In this document: positions 16,406-62,505 of the stretch, in pieces
Layout: each line of letters opens with the position of its first letter
Position numbering within the stretch: the first letter of the stretch is position 1
Source: Candidatus Peribacteraceae bacterium
GTDB taxonomy: Bacteria; Patescibacteriota; Gracilibacteria; Peribacterales; Peribacteraceae
Length of the DNA stretch: 64,000 nucleotides
Assembly: GCA_018061945.1 (NCBI GenBank)
Contig: JAGOTD010000002.1
Coordinates: 1 to 64,000, forward strand
Direction of reading: 5' to 3'
Made by a program: the position numbers and the translations under genes
The notes under the pieces: generated by a model
What the model saw: the letters and a program-made list of their open reading frames with translations, nothing else
The model's database searches: none
What the model was told of the DNA's origin: nothing

Positions 16406-17554
16406 ATGCGTCCCATCTCTCGCAGAGAGAAGAATCGCCTCGGCTTCACCCTCATCGAACTGCTGGTCGTCATCGCGATCATCGCGGTGCTGATCGCGCT
16501 CCTGCTCCCCGCCGTGCAAGCCGCTCGTGAAGCGGCGCGGCGCTCGCAGTGCGTCAACAACCTCAAGCAAATGGGGTTGGGGCTGCACAACTTCGAAAGC
16601 ACCTACAACGCGTTTCCCCGCAGTGGGGAACATCCCGTGACCTTCACCGACGGCAGGGTCTACAAGTCGCAGGACTTGCAGAGTGCGTACACGCTCATGC
16701 TCCCTTACATGGAGCAGACCGTGGTCTTCAATGCTTACAACCTTGAGCAACGCCACAACCTGCCGTCGAACTTCACTGCCGCAGGAGGCGTGCTCAACAT
16801 CTTCATCTGCCCAAGCAATGGGCTATCAGGAGATCGTCAAGGTCCCGGCCGTGATAGCAGCGGCTACGGCTGCAGCGACTACGCCGTCTGCCCGTATACC
16901 GAGCTGGATACGCTCGGTCGTCCGACCGACAACCCGGCGCACGGTACGGCTCCCGGTGCCAAGCTACTCAGCCTCGCCTCGCTGACCTCGAATCAGTACC
17001 CCAACAGCCTCTACACCCAGTTCAGCGGTTCGGGCGGCAAGACCTATGTCTCGTCGTCGAAGCGTGTTCACTTGGACCCGAGCAAGGGCAAGATCGACGT
17101 CTACGAGAACGGTTCTCGCATTGCTTCGATCACCGACGGCACCTCTAACAGCATGGCTGTTTACGAGGATGCCGGTCGCAGCGAGAAGATGTGGGAAACT
17201 GTTGGACAGAACCTTGCCGCCTCCACCGGCGGCTACCTTGATCCCGAAACCGGCGAAGCCCGCTGCCACTGGCGCTGGGCTGAGCCCGATAGCGCCTCGG
17301 GAGTGTCGAAGCTGATCAATAACAATCGCAATGCTGGCTACGCGCTCGGCGTGGCGGCTGCCCCGGGCACTTGCCCGTGGAACGCCCACGACTGCGGTCC
17401 CAATAACGAGATCTTCGCCTTCCATCCAGGCGGGGCCAACGTCCTCATGATGGACGGCTCGGTCCGCTTTGCGAAGGAAACGATGGCCGGCAACGTGTTG
17501 CGCGCTCTCATCACCAAGAATGGTGGTGAAGTCATCTCCGCCGACTCGTACTGA
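16406..17554 (+). CDS. DUF1559 type IV pilin-like protein (Planctomycetes style)
   Basis: A 382-residue protein with a type IV prepilin N-terminus: basic leader [13 protein letters not shown], a cut before [20 protein letters not shown], then [20 protein letters not shown]. This start, and the C-terminal [17 protein letters not shown] motif, define the DUF1559 (SBP_bac_10) family. That family is expanded mainly in Planctomycetes and related phyla. Its function is unknown; a secreted or surface pseudopilin is likely. The gene is clearly more GC-rich, by eye, than its neighbours and has a strong SD (GGAGG, 16396-16400), unlike most genes here. Both point to transfer from outside. Assembly contamination should be excluded. 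Confidence 0.9.
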
Positions 17555-54393: not shown

Positions 54394-55008
54394 ATGTCTT
54401 CCGGAAAACTTGTTTTGATAATCGGCCCCAGCGGAGTTGGAAAAAGTGTGATTCTCAAAACACTCAGACAGCGTCATGCTGAGTTTGTGTTTCCGCGATC
54501 GGCAACCACACGTGCTCGCCGCGAGCGCGAAGGCGACGATCTGTATCACTTTGTATCCGAAGAAGAATTCACCGATTGGATCAATCAGGAAAAGTTTTTG
54601 GAATGGGCGCAGGTTCATAAAGGCGCGCGCTACGGCACGTTGTACGACGAAATTATTCCAGCAATTGAGCAGGGCAAGACCGTCGTCCGCGAAGTGGATG
54701 TACAGGGTTTTGAATCGCTGCGCAAAGACACGCGCTATTTTGGCGAAGGCGCCAAGTACAAACTGCAAACAATCTTTATCCTGCCCGAAAACGAACAGCA
54801 ACTCATCGCACGCATCATCAAACGCGCACCGATTGCCGACGAAGAACTCAAGCGTCGCGTCGAAAGTATGCAAAAAGAACTCGCCTTCGCAGCCCTTACC
54901 GATGTGCAGATTATCAATCACGAAGGCAAGATTGATGAGACAATGGCGGAAGTGGAGAGGGCGATCGGGGATACGAATTACGAATTACGAATTACGAATT
55001 ACGAATAG
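54394..55008 (+). CDS. gmk: Guanylate kinase, with repeat-encoded C-terminus
   Basis: A 204-residue kinase converting GMP to GDP. P-loop GPSGVGKS, GMP-binding RSATTRARREREGDDLYHFV, and the lid region ENEQQLIARIIKRAP are all present. The protein ends TNYELRITNYE, encoded by the ACGAATT repeat array (54978-55007). A native end near residue 190 is likely. The ATG is 8 nt after TACCAT (54380-54385) with no SD. Confidence 0.95.
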   Translation: MSSGKLVLIIGPSGVGKSVILKTLRQRHAEFVFPRSATTRARREREGDDLYHFVSEEEFTDWINQEKFLEWAQVHKGARYGTLYDEIIPAIEQGKTVVREVDVQGFESLRKDTRYFGEGAKYKLQTIFILPENEQQLIARIIKRAPIADEELKRRVESMQKELAFAALTDVQIINHEGKIDETMAEVERAIGDTNYELRITNYE

Positions 55009-55100: not shown

Positions 55101-55126
55101 AAAAAAACCGCCGTGGGGAGGCGGTG
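55101..55126 (-). terminator. Terminator of the 55.2-kb small gene
   Basis: On the minus strand ACCGCC-TCCCC-ACGGCGGT-like stem (CACCGCC/GGCGGT) is followed by TTTTTTT. An equivalent terminator follows the related gene at 61.3 kb. Confidence 0.75.
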
Positions 55127-55161: not shown

Positions 55162-55578
55162 TTACGATTGGAGGAACAAATGCGCCAGGCTATCGCCGTT
55201 TGGAGCATCATCGCTCGTCACTTGGAATCGAAGCTCGAACCCACGCTCCGTTTCAACGACGCTGAGGATGCCTACATACGGCTCTTTCCGCGCGACGAAA
55301 CCGGTGTTGTCAGTGTCCATCTGCCAGGTTTTCCCATTGTCGTCGGTGACAATTCTCGGATCCACTTTGCGGATCCGAATTTTGGCGCCGTGGATTTTCA
55401 AGCCTTTCGTAGGCTTGATGCTGATTTCCATGGTGTGCAGAGATCGATTCCAATGAATCGACGATTGAGACGCTTGCGTGGCATCGATGCGAAAAGCAGG
55501 AAGCTGCTCAGTTGTATGCTGCAGTTCGTATGCACCATCATTTCGGCGCACTAGATTGGTATCATGAAAATCGGTCAT
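55162..55578 (-). CDS. Small beta-rich protein with structured leader (family member 1)
   Basis: A 138-residue soluble protein, not recognised. It has a beta-strand pattern (LHTMEISIKPTKGLKIHGAK; VETERGFELRFQV). The ATG is preceded by a real SD (GGGGAGG, 7 nt upstream), unusual in this window. A second small gene at 61336-61794 has the same leader, the same kind of terminator and a faintly similar sequence (ISI...NGK-TW versus ISI...NGI-W). I chose the minus frame over an overlapping plus-strand frame (55168-55554) because of these shared signals. Confidence 0.7.
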   Translation of the reverse strand: MTDFHDTNLVRRNDGAYELQHTTEQLPAFRIDATQASQSSIHWNRSLHTMEISIKPTKGLKIHGAKIRIRKVDPRIVTDDNGKTWQMDTDNTGFVARKEPYVGILSVVETERGFELRFQVTSDDAPNGDSLAHLFLQS

Positions 55579-55726
55579 CAATTCCTCCCCACGGCATCCT
55601 CCTTCTGTTCGCGCCCCACGTGCGAACAGGAGCAAAACGCCTTGTGCATGCGGTGACGCCTCTTGATACCGCAAGCGCGGTCTCATCAAAAAGAGGGTGG
55701 ATAGGGAAGTGTCTGTCAAAGAACGG
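55579..55726 (-). promoter_or_regulatory. Conserved structured 5' leader, copy 1 (candidate riboswitch/thermosensor)
   Basis: Read on the minus strand: GCACGCCGTTCTTT at the predicted RNA start, then TTCCCTATCCACCCTC, a T-run and an ACCGC-gctt-GCGGT hairpin closed by CCTCTT/AAGAGG. Next come CATGC, the stem CTGTTCGC/GCGAACAG with the GTGGGG loop (55629-55611), and finally GGAGGATGCCGTGGGGAGG. The early CTTCCC and CCTC words can pair with the late GGGGAG and GAGG, so the SD can be hidden. The same order and words occur at 61795-61946. Confidence 0.68.
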
Positions 55727-55731
55727 CGTGC

Positions 55732-55760
55732 ATCATGAAATATGATGAATTGATTGTCAA
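55732..55760 (-). promoter_or_regulatory. Promoter of the 55.2-kb small gene
   Basis: Minus strand TTGACA (55760-55755), 17-nt spacer, CATGAT (55737-55732). The RNA would start at the conserved GCACGC word. Confidence 0.65.
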
Positions 55761-55777
55761 TTATTCTGTATGGAGTC

Positions 55778-55954
55778 TTAATCCTTCGTATCCTCCTTTT
55801 CCACATGTCGCGCATGCCTATCCTCCAAAAGCTTTTTACCGACAATTGAGCCAATCGCTCCACCAATAATGAGACCAACCACCACTTTTTTCATCGTCTT
55901 TTTCATCGGGAGAATATCTTTCTTTTTGCGCCAGAAGAGGAACGGAATTCGCAT
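55778..55954 (-). CDS. Small YtxH-like membrane protein
   Basis: A 58-residue protein with one glycine-rich helix (VVVGLIIGGAIGSIVGKKLL) and charged ends, like YtxH/gas-vesicle-type small membrane proteins. The ATG at 55954 is 6 nt after TATAAT (minus 55966-55961). It is divergent from folP. Confidence 0.6.
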   Translation of the reverse strand: MRIPFLFWRKKKDILPMKKTMKKVVVGLIIGGAIGSIVGKKLLEDRHARHVEKEDTKD

Positions 55955-56043
55955 GCGGCGATTATAACACGGCGGTGCAATTTCTCTGTATACTTTCCTC
56001 ACAAAAATCGTTTTCGTGTCTCATCATCATTTGTTCATTATTC

Positions 56044-56919
56044 ATGTCATTCCTGCTTCGCTCTGGCCTCAAGACGCTCGATTATACGGGTAAAACGCTC
56101 GTTGTCGGGATTTTGAATATCACGCCGGATTCGTTTGTCGATGGCGGCAAGTGGCTGGAGCCACACAAGGCAATTGATCGCGCCACAGAAATGATCGCGC
56201 AGGGCGCCGACATTATCGACATTGGCGGCGAATCAACCGGTCCGGATTCATTAAGTGTTTCAGCGGAGGAAGAAATCAGACGGGTTCTGCCCATCATCAA
56301 AGCTCTTCGCAGCGAATTATCCGATGTGTGGCTTTCGATCGATACCTGGAAAGCGGATGTTGCCGATAACGCACTACAATCGGGAGTGGATATGATCAAT
56401 GATATTTCGGCTGGCAGGTTTGATCCGCAGATGTTTTCGGTGCTTGCGAAGCATCAGTGTCCCTATGTGCTGATGTACAGCAAAGACACAACGCCACGTA
56501 CGAAAAAAATTGATCAGCAGTACGACAATGTCATCGAGACGATTCATGCATTTCTTGCCGATCGTATCCATCAGGCAATAGAGCAGGGGATTGATCGGTC
56601 GCGCATTATCGTCGATCCGGGGCTTGGGTGGTTTGTGTCGGGTACGCCGTCGTACTCATTTGAGATTTTGAATCAGCTGGAAAAATTTGCAGATCTAGCG
56701 CCGGTCTTCATCAGTCCATCGCGTAAGTCATTCCTCGCAGGCCCAAACAATCTGCCTGCATCTGAGCGTTTATCGGCGACTCTTGATGCGACGAAAATTG
56801 CCCTCGAGCATGGCGCATCATTTATCCGAACACATGATGTGAGCGAAACAAAGAACGTGATTCATCGATTTTTTTTCAACCACAGAGACGAATCACGAAT
56901 TACGAATCACGAATTATGA
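56044..56919 (+). CDS. folP: Dihydropteroate synthase
   Basis: A 291-residue TIM-barrel enzyme that condenses pABA with the pterin in folate synthesis. Signatures are GILNITPDSFVDGGKW near the N-terminus and GADIIDIGGESTGPDS. VWLSIDTWKADVADNAL and IIVDPGLGWF follow. Other folate genes are not in the window. The last residues (DESRITNHEL) are encoded in an ACGAATT-type repeat. The ATG at 56044 begins the conserved part. Confidence 0.93.
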   Translation: MSFLLRSGLKTLDYTGKTLVVGILNITPDSFVDGGKWLEPHKAIDRATEMIAQGADIIDIGGESTGPDSLSVSAEEEIRRVLPIIKALRSELSDVWLSIDTWKADVADNALQSGVDMINDISAGRFDPQMFSVLAKHQCPYVLMYSKDTTPRTKKIDQQYDNVIETIHAFLADRIHQAIEQGIDRSRIIVDPGLGWFVSGTPSYSFEILNQLEKFADLAPVFISPSRKSFLAGPNNLPASERLSATLDATKIALEHGASFIRTHDVSETKNVIHRFFFNHRDESRITNHEL

Positions 56920-56952
56920 ATCTTCTCGCTTACCGCTACCCACTTATCGCTT

Positions 56953-57741
56953 TTAGAGTGTTTGCACAATAAACTCAGTGATCACAAAGCTCGTGCCAAT
57001 CAGCATTAGTCCGCCAAGTGAGCGCACAATGAGCGAGCGGGCGCCAGTAAAGGCTTCTTCGTTACCGAAGTTGAGCACCATGCGAATGCCGGCGTACACC
57101 ACAATACACAGTGCAACGAGCGTCATCATGCCAAGAACCAGCGCGACTCGTCCTAAAATCAAGTTGATCAGGAGATTCGGACTGTCGTTGAAGAACGCAA
57201 CTTTTATCGCGTAGCCAAGCGAAATAACAAGCATACCGAGAATCACATGGAAGACGGTCGTGCGCACAACGGTATAGGAATTCTCGTCGCCGAAGCTGCC
57301 GATCGCGCGGAAAGCGCCAATGACAATAATCGCAATGCCACTCATGGCCGCCATCGACGAGAGCCATTTTCCGATCCCCACTGCCTCGTTGTTCAGAAGT
57401 TCGGCGCGTGCAGTCTCAATACCATTGATCTGAAACAGAATCTGTTCGATCGGGCCCGACAGAGTAATAAAGATAAGGCCGACGACAATCGCGTTGATGG
57501 ATTTTTTTGCCTTGTCCATCGATCCTTCATCGCTCGTAATAATCAGGCGAATAGAGGCAATCACGAGCATCAGCACTGCAACCTTGAACACGGTGCCATT
57601 GAACATATCAAACAGCTCGCCAATCAGACTACCAATAGCCACGGCACCGGGTGTCTGGCCATAGGCAAGGTTTGGAACGAGAAGCATCCCCAGCAGCACA
57701 CTGGTTTGGGCAAGCCGACGCAAACGAGGAGACAGAGGCAT
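56953..57741 (-). CDS. VirB2/TrbC-like membrane protein with three pilin-like modules (B)
   Basis: A 262-residue protein with a signal peptide (1-29, ...LAYGQ) and six helices. They form three similar helix-loop-helix units, each with an I-R-x-I/V, acidic/Asn, basic pattern: IASIRLIITSDEGSMDKAKK, then GAFRAIGSFGDENSYTVVR, then YAGIRMVLNFGNEEAFTGAR. Single VirB2/TrbC pilins have one such unit. It begins one base after the stop of the paralog upstream. A role in a type IV secretion or pilus-like assembly is inferred from the module only. Confidence 0.72.
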   Translation of the reverse strand: MPLSPRLRRLAQTSVLLGMLLVPNLAYGQTPGAVAIGSLIGELFDMFNGTVFKVAVLMLVIASIRLIITSDEGSMDKAKKSINAIVVGLIFITLSGPIEQILFQINGIETARAELLNNEAVGIGKWLSSMAAMSGIAIIVIGAFRAIGSFGDENSYTVVRTTVFHVILGMLVISLGYAIKVAFFNDSPNLLINLILGRVALVLGMMTLVALCIVVYAGIRMVLNFGNEEAFTGARSLIVRSLGGLMLIGTSFVITEFIVQTL

Positions 57742-58509
57742 TTAGCTGAAGATAAAGGCAATCAGGCTGTAACTCGCAATGACCACAACGAGCGTGATAA
57801 TTGTTCCAGTCACTGTTTTCTTGGCGCGGTCTTTAAGCGCTTCATCGACCGAGACAATCAGCAAGATTCCGGCTGCGATCATGGCCAGAACCGATAGAAT
57901 TCCGATGATACCCAGCACGAATTGCACGAAGCCGGCTATTTCATCCAGAATATAGCTGGTGTCTTTTTGCGTGACAGCTAAGACAATCGCGCGCGAGAAC
58001 ATCATCAAAATCACACCACCGATATGCATGGCCATGGTTTTCTTGAGTTTATCGGCTTCGCCACTTTCTCCCTGCGAAGCTACAAGACGCATACCCGAAA
58101 TCGTGAGCACGAGCGTAAATGCGCCACCGGCTGCCGTGGTGATAAATATCAGAAGCTGATCAAAGCCTCCGCCGCTGCCGAAAATCGGTGCGAAACTGTT
58201 TGTCTGCAGTGACAAGGCAATGGAACCGGCAAGCGCGATAATGCCAAAACCAATCAGGACAAGAATGAATGATTTCGTTGCGTCACTCAACGCGCTCTCA
58301 TTATCCGAATCAACGATCATTCTGTAGCCGTAGTAAAACAGAAATGCGACAGAGAGAGGTTGAAAGATGTAAATAGCGTTACTGATGATGTGTAGTTGAA
58401 TAAACGCCGCAAACGCTCGGGCACCGCTCGCTGCAAAGACACTGTCTGGCATTAGCAGACAAAAAAGTGCCAAGGGGACAATTGCCGAAAGGTGGCGTCT
58501 GGATACCAT
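57742..58509 (-). CDS. VirB2/TrbC-like membrane protein with three pilin-like modules (A)
   Basis: A 255-residue paralog of the next gene: signal peptide (1-26, ...DSVFAAS), six helices and three modules (YGYRMIVDSDNESALSDATK; SGMRLVASQGESGEADKLKK; AAGILLIVSVDEALKDRAKK). The two genes abut exactly and are surely cotranscribed. No VirB4/VirD4 ATPase is in view, so I cannot place them in a complete secretion system. Confidence 0.72.
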   Translation of the reverse strand: MVSRRHLSAIVPLALFCLLMPDSVFAASGARAFAAFIQLHIISNAIYIFQPLSVAFLFYYGYRMIVDSDNESALSDATKSFILVLIGFGIIALAGSIALSLQTNSFAPIFGSGGGFDQLLIFITTAAGGAFTLVLTISGMRLVASQGESGEADKLKKTMAMHIGGVILMMFSRAIVLAVTQKDTSYILDEIAGFVQFVLGIIGILSVLAMIAAGILLIVSVDEALKDRAKKTVTGTIITLVVVIASYSLIAFIFS

Positions 58510-58583
58510 AAATCTAAATATTATAGCAGAAAATTACTCTTGGAACAACTTGCGAGGCAGGCCAAAACCCATAGGATGCAGGT

Positions 58584-59276
58584 ATGTCCACTTTTTCACG
58601 ACCACATTCATCGGCCATTATTCTCGATAATTCAACGCTTTCACGGGTGTATTTCCTCTTTGCATTGGCTCTAGGACTCACTTTTTCTGGTATTTATGCC
58701 GGTATGACCTTTGCCTTGCCCATCATCACTTCTGGATGGATGTTTGGCCTGCTTATGATCGAATTACTGCTGATTGTCACATCGCGCGCTTGGATGAACA
58801 TTTCGCCGCTCAATTACATCCTTTTTGCCTTATTTCCACTCTTTTCGGGGCTTACGATCACGCCGTTTTTGCTCTCGGTGACCGAAGCCTACGTCAACGG
58901 TGCGTCTATTTTGCTCAATGCTGCTATTTCAACCGCTCTCATGAGCACGGCCGCCGGTATTTTCGCCTACACAACCAACTGGAACCTCGGCATGTTCAGC
59001 CGGTTTCTGTTTTTCTCACTCGTTGGTCTGGTGGCTTTTAGCCTGATTCAGCTCTTTGTGCCGTTTTTGCGCACAGGCATTACCGAAGTATTTGCCTCTG
59101 GCTTTGGCATCGTTGTTTTCTCGCTCTATACCGCCTACGACATTCAGCGCATTCAGACCATGGCCACTCGCGGTGCCTCGCCCTTTATGCTGGCGCTCAG
59201 CCTGTATCTCGATATCTTCAACCTGTTCCTCTACATTGCACGTTTCATGCTGGCGATAAGCGGAAATAGGCGATAG
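58584..59276 (+). CDS. Bax inhibitor-1 (BI-1/YbhL) family membrane protein
   Basis: A 230-residue protein with seven helices. The C-terminal SLYTAYDIQRIQTM and LALSLYLDIFNLFLYIARFM segments, with two Asp residues in the last helices, are the BI-1/UPF0005 signature linked to a pH-sensitive calcium leak in a bacterial homologue. The ATG is 6 nt after TAGGAT (58572-58577) and no SD is present. Confidence 0.92.
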   Translation: MSTFSRPHSSAIILDNSTLSRVYFLFALALGLTFSGIYAGMTFALPIITSGWMFGLLMIELLLIVTSRAWMNISPLNYILFALFPLFSGLTITPFLLSVTEAYVNGASILLNAAISTALMSTAAGIFAYTTNWNLGMFSRFLFFSLVGLVAFSLIQLFVPFLRTGITEVFASGFGIVVFSLYTAYDIQRIQTMATRGASPFMLALSLYLDIFNLFLYIARFMLAISGNRR

Positions 59277-59301
59277 GGTTTGGGATAGGGTTAGGGGTTT
59301 G
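59277..59301. repeat. GGGTTAGGG-like G-run tract
   Basis: GGGTTTGGGATAGGGTTAGG starts right at the BI-1 stop. The four G-runs could form a G-quadruplex. Confidence 0.5.
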
Positions 59302-59410
59302 GACTTAGACATAGAGGAATTTTGTCTTTCATTTATTCATTGTTTATTTAGTATTGAGATTTTTCCCGCCCGTACCGAACGTACACGTTCGGGCGGGGAT
59401 CTTCGTATTT

Positions 59411-59458
59411 TTCATTCCTTTGAGTCTTTTGAGTCCTTTGATTCTTCTGAGTCCTCAT
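59411..59458. repeat. GACTCAGA-type repeat, copy 4 (reverse orientation)
   Basis: TTTGAGTCTTTTGAGTCCTT and TTCTGAGTCC words lie upstream of the bL32-like gene. Confidence 0.6.
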
Positions 59459-59503
59459 TTTTCTCTTTACAGCACTCATCTCAGCCTCTAATATTTGGCC
59501 CTC

Positions 59504-59689
59504 ATGTCAAAGAAACCTACCCCCAAAAAGCGGCTATCCAAGGATCGTGGTCGACGTCGTCACTCGACGTTCGTCACAAACGAAGTACGCAGACTCAAGG
59601 ATAAGGCCAATTCGCCCTACAGCGGACCTGTAACCCAGAAGAACAAAGGTCGCAAGGCGTTGGATAAGATCACGACTATTAAAGCGTAA
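59504..59689 (+). CDS. rpmF: Putative ribosomal protein bL32, without zinc ribbon
   Basis: A 61-residue very basic protein. Its start PKKRLSKDRGRRRHSTFV fits the bL32 pattern P-K-R-x-x-S-K-x-R-x-x-x-R-R-x-H. The C-terminal half lacks the four Cys of the usual zinc ribbon. Position before nusB and rnc supports a translation role. It could instead be another small basic ribosome-associated protein. The repeat after the stop is of the ACGAATT type. Confidence 0.55.
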   Translation: MSKKPTPKKRLSKDRGRRRHSTFVTNEVRRLKDKANSPYSGPVTQKNKGRKALDKITTIKA

Positions 59690-59692
59690 GCG

Positions 59693-59757
59693 AAGTACGA
59701 ATCTGGAAGTACGAAGTACGACAAGCGTAATTCGTGATTCGCAATTCGATATTCGTC
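59693..59757. repeat. ACGAATT-type inverted tract
   Basis: GAAGTACGAATCTGGAAGTA, then GTAATTCGTGATTCGCAATT: inverted words starting a few bases after the bL32-like stop. Confidence 0.65.
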
Positions 59758-59813
59758 TGATCTTCTCTTCACTGTAAGAAAGCGCTACGCTATAGCTCTC
59801 TTCACACAGCTCT

Positions 59814-60227
59814 ATGCCATCCCGCCGTCACACCGCTCGGATTGTCACCATGCAGACGTTGTTTGAAATGAGCATGCGCGACGAAAAGGAGTTGGAGGTT
59901 TTCACGCGTGACATGAAACATGCAGATGATGACGGCAATGAGGCTGATGAAGAATTTGCACTCAAGCTTCTAAAGGGCGTGCATGCAAAGAAAGAAGAAA
60001 TCGAGCTGTCCATCACGACCTGCGCCCCCGAATGGCCGCTGGATCGTATGGATCCTATTACGCGTTGCATTCTCTTCATTGGCGCCTACGAGCTACTGTT
60101 TGGCAACGACGCACCAGCACCGGTTGTGATGAACGAAGCCATCGAAATGGCCAAAGAATACGGAACGGCAGAGAGTGCAAAGTTTGTGAATGGCGTCCTC
60201 AATGCTCTGGCTCATCCGAAGAAATAA
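59814..60227 (+). CDS. nusB: Transcription antitermination factor NusB
   Basis: A 137-residue all-helical protein that binds boxA RNA with S10 during rRNA transcription. Typical parts are SRRHTARIVTMQTLFEM, the WPLDRMDPITRCILFIGAYE core and NEAIEMAKEYGTAESAKFVN at the end. It lies in the same segment as rpsJ, its partner NusE. The leader of ~18 nt after TATAGC has no SD. Confidence 0.92.
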   Translation: MPSRRHTARIVTMQTLFEMSMRDEKELEVFTRDMKHADDDGNEADEEFALKLLKGVHAKKEEIELSITTCAPEWPLDRMDPITRCILFIGAYELLFGNDAPAPVVMNEAIEMAKEYGTAESAKFVNGVLNALAHPKK

Positions 60228-60254
60228 ACAGGAGGTTTTTTGCGATACAACTAT

Positions 60255-60322
60255 AACGAATTACGAATCTCGAAGTACGTATTACGAACCATTCGTAATA
60301 CGTAATACGTACTTCGTACTTC
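60255..60322. repeat. ACGAATT/ACGTATT-type inverted tract
   Basis: CGAATTACGAATCTCGAAGT on the left and CGTAATACGTACTTCGTACT on the right, between nusB and rnc. Confidence 0.65.
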
Positions 60323-60376
60323 GCCTTTCCAACATTCTTTTTTACAAATCGTCATTATCAATTTACTATAGGATCT

Positions 60377-61072
60377 ATGGCCAATCCGACATCGTTTACC
60401 GGGCTCGAGAAAACAACCGGGGTGCACTTTCATAACAAAAACCTGTTGGCCCAAGCGCTTACGCATCGCTCTGCCATGCACGAACGCGGTCGTCATGGCC
60501 ACAACGAACGTCTCGAGTTTTTGGGTGATGCAGTTTTACAGATGATCACAACTGAGTACCTGTTTCATGTTAGTGACAAACCCGAAGGCGAGCTGACCAA
60601 CTGGCGTTCGGCGCTGGTGCAAGGCAATCATCTGTCGCAAGTAGCACACGAGCTCAAGTTGGGAGAATACATCTTTATGAGCCGTGGCGAAGAAGCCTCT
60701 GGCGGCCGCATGAAAGATTCCACTCTTGCCGATGCCGTGGAAGCGTTTATCGGTGCTGCGTATTTAGACCAAGGCTTGGAAGTAGCTAAAACATTTGTCC
60801 ATCAGTTCATTCTGGCCCACCTCAAAAATCTTTTGGCTCAAGGCAAACACAAGGACGAGAAGAGTTTATTGCAAGAAATGGCGCAGGAGAAAACAGGCAT
60901 AACGCCAACCTACGATACCATCGATGAAACAGGTCCAGATCACCTGAAAACGTTCACGTGTGCCGTTTTTATCGGCGAAGAGCAGATAGCGACTGGTGCT
61001 GGCAATACCAAGCAAAAAGCTGAGCAGAGTGCGGCAAAAGAGGCACTGAAGGTGAAGGGATGGAAGAAATAA
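60377..61072 (+). CDS. rnc: Ribonuclease III
   Basis: A 231-residue dsRNA endonuclease for rRNA and mRNA processing. The RNase III signature NERLEFLGDAVLQ is at about residues 42-54, with the second catalytic Asp/Glu region DSTLADAVEAFIGAAYLDQG. A dsRNA-binding domain occupies about 155-228 (KSLLQEMAQEKTGITPTYDT). Many intergenic hairpins in this window would be natural substrates. TACTAT (60364-60369) lies 7 nt before the ATG. A GACTCAGA repeat begins at the stop. Confidence 0.95.
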   Translation: MANPTSFTGLEKTTGVHFHNKNLLAQALTHRSAMHERGRHGHNERLEFLGDAVLQMITTEYLFHVSDKPEGELTNWRSALVQGNHLSQVAHELKLGEYIFMSRGEEASGGRMKDSTLADAVEAFIGAAYLDQGLEVAKTFVHQFILAHLKNLLAQGKHKDEKSLLQEMAQEKTGITPTYDTIDETGPDHLKTFTCAVFIGEEQIATGAGNTKQKAEQSAAKEALKVKGWKK

Positions 61073-61106
61073 GGACTCAGAAGACTCAGAGGACTCAAAA
61101 GACTCA
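61073..61106. repeat. GACTCAGA-type repeat, copy 5
   Basis: GGACTCAGAAGACTCAGAGG, then ACTCAAAAGACTC, directly after the rnc stop codon. Confidence 0.65.
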
Positions 61107-61227
61107 AAGGAAAGAAGAATATCCGCAGTCGGGACCCTTCGATTCGCTCAGTGCAAGCGCAGCGTTTCGGTTCTTGTTCAAAGAGAAGGGTTATTTGAAA
61201 ATCGCTATACTACAAACAAATAGTTCG

Positions 61228-61280
61228 TAGCGCAGGTTCCGTAACCTGCGCGGTCCAGCGAGATTGTCGAATCTCGCCTG
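61228..61280. repeat. Double-hairpin REP-like element
   Basis: GCGCAGGTTCCGTAACCTGCGC and GCGAGATTGTCGAATCTCGC are two adjacent near-perfect palindromes separated by six bases. Confidence 0.65.
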
Positions 61281-61302
61281 CTATTCTCGTTGAGAATTTA
61301 TA

Positions 61303-61329
61303 ACAAAAAATCGCCGTGGGGCGGCGATT
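61303..61329 (-). terminator. Terminator of the 61.3-kb small gene
   Basis: On the minus strand ATCGCCG-CCCCA-CGGCGAT is followed by TTTTTG, close to the terminator at 55101-55126. Confidence 0.8.
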
Positions 61330-61335
61330 GTCTGG

Positions 61336-61794
61336 TTAGAAGAAAATGTCGAGTTCGATCATCTTCTCCCAAGCCATGATCCATGTCCCTGTTGCTGCGA
61401 GTCCGTTGAGACTGCGCATAGTAAGGATCAGGCTATTTTCTTTTTTACTTGCCACGACATCGGCCTTGATCTCACTGCCTCGGGTCATAATGCACGAAGG
61501 AGGGCTATCGTGCACGATCCAAATTCCATTTCCAGTATCGCGGAACCATTCTTTATTTTCGCCCACTTCCTCGATCACCAGATGCGCTCGCACGAAGGTA
61601 ATCGGGCAATCGACTCCAATAGAAATCCGAGTGAGTTGCTTGGCGTATCCGGCACTCCGGACGTATGTGTAGGCAGTTTGAACGTCTTCGCCTGCAACTG
61701 GACGAAGACACAGAGTGTCTTTGATAGCATCGAGACTTGCAATCTGTTGGCCGTTATCTCGTTGTGTAGTCACGAATGGGGGGTTGAACGACAT
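61336..61794 (-). CDS. Small beta-rich protein with structured leader (family member 2)
   Basis: A 152-residue soluble protein of unknown function. Strand-like stretches ARAHLVIEEVGENKEWFRDT and SEIKADVVASKKENSLILTM are similar in spacing to the 138-residue protein at 55.2 kb. The ATG at 61794 follows a GGGGAGAG SD. Three Cys are present and no signal peptide. The leader, promoter type and terminator are shared with the 55.2-kb gene, so the two probably respond to the same signal. Confidence 0.7.
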   Translation of the reverse strand: MSFNPPFVTTQRDNGQQIASLDAIKDTLCLRPVAGEDVQTAYTYVRSAGYAKQLTRISIGVDCPITFVRAHLVIEEVGENKEWFRDTGNGIWIVHDSPPSCIMTRGSEIKADVVASKKENSLILTMRSLNGLAATGTWIMAWEKMIELDIFF

Positions 61795-61946
61795 AATTTC
61801 TTCTCTCCCCACGGCATCCTCTTTCTTTCTGCGCCCCACGCAGATTGAAAGATTCAACCGAGCATGTGGTGGGCACCTCTGGCATCGCACAAGGCGATGC
61901 CTAAAAAAGAGGATGGATAGGGAATGATGGTATGTAAAAGAACGAG
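61795..61946 (-). promoter_or_regulatory. Conserved structured 5' leader, copy 2
   Basis: Minus strand: GCACGCTCGTTCTTTT, TTCCCTATCCATCCTC, a T-run, hairpin GGCATCGC/GCGATGCC closed by CCTCT/AGAGG, CATGC, stem TCTGC/GCAGA with the GTGGGGC loop (61844-61828), then AGAGGATGCCGTGGGGAG. CATCCTC and GAGGATG are perfectly complementary (7 bp) and UUCCC can pair with GGGAG of the SD. Confidence 0.68.
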
Positions 61947-61952
61947 CGTGCT

Positions 61953-61980
61953 ATTGTAAGAGCATTCTCGTTTTATGCAA
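61953..61980 (-). promoter_or_regulatory. Promoter of the 61.3-kb small gene
   Basis: Minus strand TTGCAT (61980-61975), 16-nt spacer, TACAAT (61958-61953), placing the RNA start at the conserved GCACGC word. Confidence 0.65.
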
Positions 61981-62049: not shown

Positions 62050-62505
62050 TTACCCCATCTTGATCTCGATGCTGACGCCCGATGGCAAGCTCAAGTTCTG
62101 CAGAGCATCGACAGTCTTGAGAGTTGTTTCGTTCAAGTCGATCAAGCGACGGTGAATGCGCATTTCGAACTGATCGCGTGCGTCTTTGTGAACGAACGTC
62201 GAGCGGTTGACTGTAAACTTCTTGATCTTCGTTGGTAGGGGAATAGGACCATGAACTACCGCACCAGTGCGGATAGCAGTGTCGACGATCTTCATGCTGG
62301 TCTCATCCAATACGTTATAGTCAAAAGCACTCAAGCGAATGCGGATTCCTTTAATTTTAGATGATGTGTCTGCCTTGGCAGATGTTGTTTCCTCTCCCTT
62401 GGCTTTGTCAGCTTTCGTAGCGCGAGAAGTTTTTGGCTTCTTGGTATCTTCAGACGACATATCGTCTTCGTGCTTGGTTACTTTCTTTTTTGTGACTGCG
62501 CTCAT
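62050..62505 (-). CDS. rpsJ: Ribosomal protein uS10 with N-terminal extension
   Basis: A 151-residue protein. The S10 core starts near residue 50 ([20 protein letters not shown], then [20 protein letters not shown] and [11 protein letters not shown]). The first ~48 residues are a Lys/Ser/Thr/Asp-rich, probably disordered extension absent from standard S10 (~102 aa). S10 is also NusE, the NusB partner. It follows tuf in the same direction, as in str/S10 operons, separated by a 38-bp palindrome. Confidence 0.94.

Follow-up and report, generated by a model that had tools for sequence, protein, structure and literature searches.

A family of mRNA leaders in Candidatus Peribacteraceae with a boxA-type word, a closing stem and a complementary 3' trailer

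Two leaders of one RNA family

The first 64,000 nucleotides of contig JAGOTD010000002.1 of a Candidatus Peribacteraceae bacterium (GCA_018061945.1), here called the window, contain two minus-strand leaders, A and B, upstream of the ATG codons at 55578 (gene A) and 61794 (gene B), which an earlier note had picked out from the letters and which are confirmed here. They belong to a conserved RNA family of Candidatus Peribacteraceae (Peregrinibacteria, in the candidate phyla radiation, CPR), for which sequence comparison establishes the order of parts: a word of the boxA type, a long closing stem (P1) over variable hairpins, the open reading frame (ORF), and a trailer in the 3' untranslated region (3'UTR). 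Genes A and B are monocistronic, with a terminator directly after the ORF. Their parts, including the Shine-Dalgarno sequence (SD) where P1 overlaps it, are as follows.

55732-55760, minus: putative promoter of gene A, read from the sequence, TTGACA (55755-55760), 17 bp, CATGAT (55732-55737)
55584-55737, minus: RNA family match of leader A (covariance model)
55714-55724, minus: boxA of leader A, GTTCTTTGACA, a word found beside strong model hits and matching the 16S and 23S leaders
55688-55708, minus: P1 5' arm of leader A, TTCCCTATCCACCCTCTTTTT (word search, folding, alignments)
55605-55629, minus: inner hairpin of leader A, loop ACGTGGGGC, read from the sequence
55585-55603, minus: P1 3' arm of leader A, AGGAGGATGCCGTGGGGAG, which overlaps the gene A SD (word search, folding, alignments)
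55162-55578, minus: gene A, 138 aa, no convincing Pfam family
55101-55125, minus: terminator of gene A, stem CCGCC/GGCGG and 7 T; its loop and upper stem contain trailer A
55110-55121, minus: trailer A, CCTCCCCACGGC, perfectly complementary over 12 nt to GCCGTGGGGAGG of leader A; helix present in the full-length fold
61953-61958, minus: putative -10 box of gene B, TACAAT, with TTGCAT 16 bp further upstream, read from the sequence
61804-61956, minus: RNA family match of leader B (covariance model)
61933-61943, minus: boxA of leader B, GTTCTTTTACA (sequence match)
61904-61924, minus: P1 5' arm of leader B (word search, folding, alignments)
61828-61844, minus: inner hairpin of leader B, TCTGC-GTGGGGC-GCAGA, read from the sequence
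61805-61824, minus: P1 3' arm of leader B, AAAGAGGATGCCGTGGGGAG (word search, folding, alignments)
61336-61794, minus: gene B, 152 aa, no Pfam match
61305-61328, minus: terminator of gene B; its loop and upper stem contain trailer B
61313-61321, minus: trailer B, CCCCACGGC, complementary over 9 nt to the P1 3' arm in leader B

The words reported earlier as recurring in the same order at both leaders are present, but the list had left off the most conserved one before P1, GTTCTTTgACA in one leader and GTTCTTTtACA in the other (boxA); the match of boxA to rRNA leaders and the 3'UTR trailer had likewise been missed. Single words are mildly unusual: GATGCCGTGGGGAG and TTCCCTATCCA occur exactly twice each in the window, both times at the leaders, and two or more matches arose by chance in 5/100 and 15/100 shuffles, respectively. 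The succession of TTCCCTATCCA and CCTCTTTTT is found only at the two leaders in the 1.37 Mb genome (the reversed control gave 0). In both folds, a stem unites the first and last words of the element, with folding z-scores (folding alone) of -2.0 (leader A) and -5.8 (leader B).

Of the three outcomes that would have spoken against the earlier note (no copies in relatives, no covariation, an Rfam match), none occurred. Further copies in relatives were found by covariance-model search. Within the family (74 genomes), a search with relaxed words brought up a handful of true relatives, single-word patterns giving mostly chance matches; a first model, built on P1 from 7 sequences, gave about 20 strong loci (many at E < 1e-5); a second, which included the upstream region, reached 38/74 genomes; and a third gave about 70 copies in 43/74 genomes, although covariance-model E-values are rough and the weak loci possibly include false ones. 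A third, weaker copy with a short interior lies outside the window in the same genome (G000:C7:78474-78553, minus strand) and recurs in the other species of the genus (G001:C20:19470-19549, plus strand); in neither species does it have a clear trailer, given the reading frame chosen (downstream reading frames were picked by a simple rule). Beyond the family, 353 genomes of the class contained only two weak matches and 380 genomes of the phylum none at E 1e-4, in searches that score few candidates per genome, and the viral contigs and phages searched gave no match. The supposition that the leaders fall outside known families is borne out: against Rfam release 15, the window yields only a tRNA at gathering scores, and neither leader has a plausible match at E up to 10. 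A literature search, which was not exhaustive, found no earlier report of the motif or of boxA in CPR bacteria.

P1 pairs UUCCCUAUCCAyCCUCUUU with AAAGAGGAUGCCGUGGGGAG and consists of an outer part, P1a (UCCCyUAU / GUGGGGGA), a small internal loop, and an inner part, P1b (CCUCUUU / AAAGAGG). It is strongly supported by covariation: in 19 sequences aligned by MAFFT with no structure input, both sides have changed in 10/17 pairs and 98.1% of cells are paired (53-65% with the partners slid), and in 51 sequences fitted to the covariance model, an alignment that leans towards the model, both sides have changed in 16/17 pairs and 96.7% are paired (47-60% slid). A cis-acting structured RNA with covariation had been proposed, and this much holds. 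The suggested pairings CATCCTC/GAGGATG and UUCCC/GGGAG belong to a single stem, P1, as its two halves, rather than being mutual alternatives. The local CCTCT/AGAGG helix, put forward as competitor of the SD-proximal strand, gives way in that role to the 3'UTR trailer; it turns up only in the two window leaders and in the same-genus genome and was therefore not accepted as a general feature. Inside P1, the sequence varies from one loop to several hairpins and has no common letters, although many loci carry an inner hairpin loop GGGGAGC or GUGGGGC. Because the interior lacks conservation, a metabolite aptamer was rejected; no conserved junction or loop nucleotides that could form the pocket of a metabolite riboswitch were seen.

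In the window genes, the final pairs of P1 cover GGGGAG, so that the proposed masking of the SD by its own leader holds for these two; in the majority of relatives, P1 is followed by the SD (AAGGAG) and the start codon comes at a distance of 12-50 nt, and masking is therefore not general. The leader is common to a small set of genes, in line with the suggested small regulon; the model of a stem that masks its own SD is not supported as proposed.

boxA and the predicted leader-trailer helix

The boxA word (consensus GYUCYUUSACANCA) lies 3-11 nt 5' of P1. It was absent from the first model, yet 20/20 strong hits carry it (at least 9/12 matches within 40 nt upstream), whereas 4% of control stretches reach that score and 0/300 permuted consensus words did as well. 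Among 51 aligned loci, boxA has several invariant positions, and the distance to it from the end of the upstream -10 box is mostly 8-14 nt, so the transcript probably starts no more than a few nt from boxA. In the 16S leader of this genome, which reads TGCTCCTTCACAGCATCGTGTAGTAGAGAA, the processing stem starts inside the boxA word; the 23S leader contains the boxA word TGCTCCTTAAAAGCATCGG. Across the family, a boxA-type word runs into the 16S processing stem in 17/18 16S loci, the 5' end of the 18th 16S not having been located. Since the same word stands in the organism's own 16S and 23S leaders, the conserved word of the mRNA leaders is boxA, the predicted NusB/S10 site, when judged as boxA has been in other mRNAs (PMC5725501). 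For gamma-proteobacteria, a GYTCTTTAANA-like word is the boxA consensus (PMC5725501). As to the rRNA genes themselves, 16S (L050, contig C4) and 23S (L053, contig C2) are on separate contigs and both have a leader and a boxA of their own, and the 16S matches of some relatives come in several pieces (G003:C12, G033:C14, G048:C70 and G072:C19), as if cut by contig ends, interrupted by insertions or degenerate.

The first clue to a trailer was that the terminator of gene A contains a 12-nt perfect complement of GCCGUGGGGAGG of its own leader. Such trailers match the P1a strand of the 3' arm together with the internal loop, but not the P1b strand. When leaders (P1 3' arm plus 8 nt) were compared with their own 160-nt 3'UTRs and with permuted 3'UTRs, the mean longest own complement at 50 loci was 8.18 nt against 6.56 (sd 0.17), a value reached in 0/20000 permutations, and duplex energy agrees; with related loci removed, 46 non-redundant loci gave 7.72 against 6.12+-0.17 nt (again 0/20000), and 18 later-fetched, weaker-scoring loci gave 7.11 against 5.85+-0.25 nt (p = 5e-5), all these permutations and shuffles ignoring the phylogenetic tree. 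The control targets (boxA and the 5' arm, upstream DNA, and the end of the ORF) showed no excess complementarity. Finer cuts show that P1a, the internal loop and a few nt beyond participate and P1b does not; the 28 nt 5' of the P1 3' arm, the inner-hairpin segment, also match their own 3'UTR (segment test, z 5.5). In gene B, the inner hairpin loop GUGGGGC and the loop word GCCCCAC of the terminator are exact complements.

Leader and own trailer covary at the sequence level, in keeping with leader-trailer pairing of the pre-rRNA kind. The two have changed together at L075 (GCUGUGGGGG/CCCCCACAGC), L080 (UUGUGGAGG/CCUCCACAA), L093 (GCUGCUGUGG/CCACAGCAGC), L099 (AGCGCUGUG/CACAGCGCU) and L077 (CAGGGGAGCAU/AUGCUCCCCUG), and the complement overlaps the apical loop of a terminator-like hairpin at 12/37 loci with a clear complement (2.5 expected). 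The predicted fold of full-length gene A mRNA contains the leader-trailer helix and keeps P1b, with -29.8 kcal/mol for the leader-trailer duplex and -10.4 for P1a. The GGAGG of the gene A SD lies inside this helix, which in most relatives ends before the SD.

Proposed mechanism and alternative explanations

The reading that we favor, and consider probable though by no means secure, is that these mRNAs are laid out as a miniature pre-rRNA, with boxA, the closing stem P1, and a leader-trailer helix that competes with P1a and controls translation and decay. NusB/S10 and their partners would bind boxA and hold the leader at the RNA polymerase while P1 folds first; the trailer, once transcribed, would displace P1a to form a helix beside the SD, pairing through the internal loop and leaving P1b in place. 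The helix would join the ends of the finished message and offer a double strand to RNase III, so that translation and decay of a few fast-evolving, often exported proteins would depend on completion of the transcript and on the supply of Nus factors. In the least certain step, the helix next to the SD may lower translation and start turnover by RNase III, as in the icaR mRNA of Staphylococcus aureus; the effect of the switch on expression is inferred only, by this analogy.

Three genes whose products would act on boxA and on the double-stranded leader lie within 4 kb of gene B, a proximity that may be a coincidence of housekeeping genes.

59814-60227, plus: nusB
60377-61072, plus: rnc, encoding RNase III
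62053-62505, minus: rpsJ, encoding S10 (NusE)

Repeated words of the ACGAATTACGAATTACGAAT type occupy intergenic positions in the same part of the window (54975-55008, 56888-56917, 59697-59755 and 60251-60325) and are also present after the guanylate kinase gene of the same-genus genome. Elsewhere in the window, 16406-17554 (plus strand) encodes a protein with a type IV pilin-like N terminus, reminiscent of planctomycete DUF1559 proteins.

The RNA-binding domain of Rho (PF07497) was not found in this genome; it was found in 9/14 control genomes. With Rho not detected, boxA probably aids long-range folding, and anti-Rho antitermination by boxA is unlikely unless a Rho gene lies in a gap of the assembly.

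The proteins encoded downstream are small and mostly without family: among 9 compared with Pfam, L064 is a clear GNAT acetyltransferase and L054 passes the cut-off of DUF7067 (a domain of unknown function). By a crude measure, 27/52 have a strongly hydrophobic N-terminal stretch, compared with 18/61 ORFs of the window. The products of gene A, gene B and the same-genus locus share a few positions (G, W, D), proteins of the gene A/B type being too divergent for pairwise BLAST, and an AlphaFold prediction that used four sequences was unusable (mean pLDDT 37.5). At the locus beside the guanylate kinase gene, leader and trailer have been kept in two species while the protein has drifted.

Several results weigh against the pre-rRNA-like reading. 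Forcing the leader-trailer fold on gene B costs 5.9 kcal/mol relative to the fold with P1a, so a flip of the switch is not bound to occur there. No perfect complement of 8 nt exists at 31/68 loci, some of which pair through bulges or G-U (L043, L092, L089), while others (L065, L072 and L142) seem to have no trailer. The leader-trailer helix shows no enrichment of G-U pairs relative to mismatched controls. Nus-factor binding at the leader boxA is predicted only, and the genome is 94.6% complete, so that the missing Rho could be a gap. Finally, P1 and the competing leader-trailer helix alike cover the SD in the window genes, and the direction of regulation is therefore not readable from them.

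The strongest alternative, though an unlikely one, is 5'-3' UTR pairing of the icaR type, in which RNase III would cut where the trailer has paired near the SD, the boxA-like word having no Nus function. In S. aureus, the UCCCCUG of the icaR 3'UTR base-pairs with the region of the SD, which prevents initiation and creates a substrate for RNase III (PMC3868564), and the trailers here, CUCCCC(C)AC, are C-rich words of that same type. The strong conservation of boxA, its nearly fixed place beside P1 and its identity with the rRNA boxA of the same genomes argue against this explanation, as does the position of the SD itself, outside the helix in most loci; no counterpart of P1 is described for icaR in the part of the source at hand (PMC3868564).

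Less likely by a clear step is a simple SD-masking leader or riboswitch, on with P1 open and off with P1 closed. The last P1 pairs of the window genes, lying over GGGGAG, would suit it, but the placement of the SD in most relatives does not, the letters that are conserved belong to boxA and P1, the variable interior being the part that would have to hold a ligand pocket, and the covariation of the trailer would be unexplained.

We give still less credence to a small mobile cassette with changing passenger genes, of which the matching leader and 3' words would be the ends, as inverted repeats in the DNA. Passenger genes do differ widely, the match between own ends is specific, and G-U content does not tell RNA from DNA pairing; because the G-U test is uninformative, the case against inverted repeats rests on the position of the conserved parts (some of the best-conserved ones, namely promoter, boxA and P1 5' arm, are not within the repeat pair) and on the enrichment of trailers in terminator loops. 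The retention of leader and trailer beside the guanylate kinase gene despite protein drift and the lack of matches in the viral and phage sequences also speak against a cassette. Equally improbable is a small RNA released from the 3' end to act in trans on the leaders of other members: GUGGGG is common to leaders within a genome and the terminator loops resemble small RNA seed loops, but own pairs are clearly better than cross pairs and many genomes have a single copy.

Related systems and implications

The closest parallel to the proposed pre-rRNA-like layout is pre-rRNA itself, where Nus factors bound at boxA are believed to keep the leader strand close to the RNA exit, so that it can form the leader-trailer helix once the trailer has emerged (PMC10250234). 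In the bacterial pre-rRNA leader, with its boxA and the transcription antitermination complex rrnTAC, boxA likewise directly precedes a strand that will form a helix with a distant trailer, and holding of that strand by Nus factors is proposed there (PMC10250234), as it would be here by inference. The Peribacteraceae transcripts differ in being protein-coding mRNAs in which a local stem, P1, competes and the trailer is short and often in a terminator loop. Gamma-proteobacterial mRNAs (suhB, nusE/rpsJ, ribH and a ParE-like toxin) also have boxA in the 5'UTR, but in suhB it lies 6 nt from the SD, with a block of initiation and Rho-dependent termination proposed, and the available portion of the report describes no conserved stem or trailer for these mRNAs (PMC5725501); in Peribacteraceae, boxA probably starts the transcript, P1 and the trailer are present, and no Rho was found. 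The icaR mRNA shares the C-rich 3'UTR motif that pairs with its own 5'UTR beside the SD but, as far as the accessible text goes, is a single described gene without boxA or P1 (PMC3868564), whereas the family described here covaries across many loci. The lambdoid nut site resembles these leaders in having boxA followed by a hairpin (boxB) near the transcript start (PMC10250234 and general knowledge); P1, in contrast, is about 17 bp long and closes variable hairpins, and the window genes each form a single-gene unit whose terminator follows the ORF directly (no search for an N-like factor was made).

The layout points to a form of message control not previously described in this lineage, and the RNA family is a regulatory one for a group whose gene regulation is almost unknown. 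It would also be a broad case, backed by covariation, of 5'-3' UTR pairing within bacterial mRNAs, of which, to our knowledge, only a few single-gene examples exist.

A wider interpretation, which we hold only tentatively and rate somewhat short of an even chance, is that a CPR lineage without Rho has adopted the co-transcriptional folding machinery of rRNA (boxA, Nus factors, leader-trailer helix and RNase III) as a layer of mRNA control for fast-evolving, often exported proteins, through a three-way competition among P1, the trailer and the inner hairpin loop. The roles of Nus factors at boxA beyond opposing Rho are hard to separate from ribosome assembly; short natural boxA transcripts with a competing stem and a leader-trailer helix, from apparently Rho-less cells, would make them directly testable in vitro or in E. 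coli.

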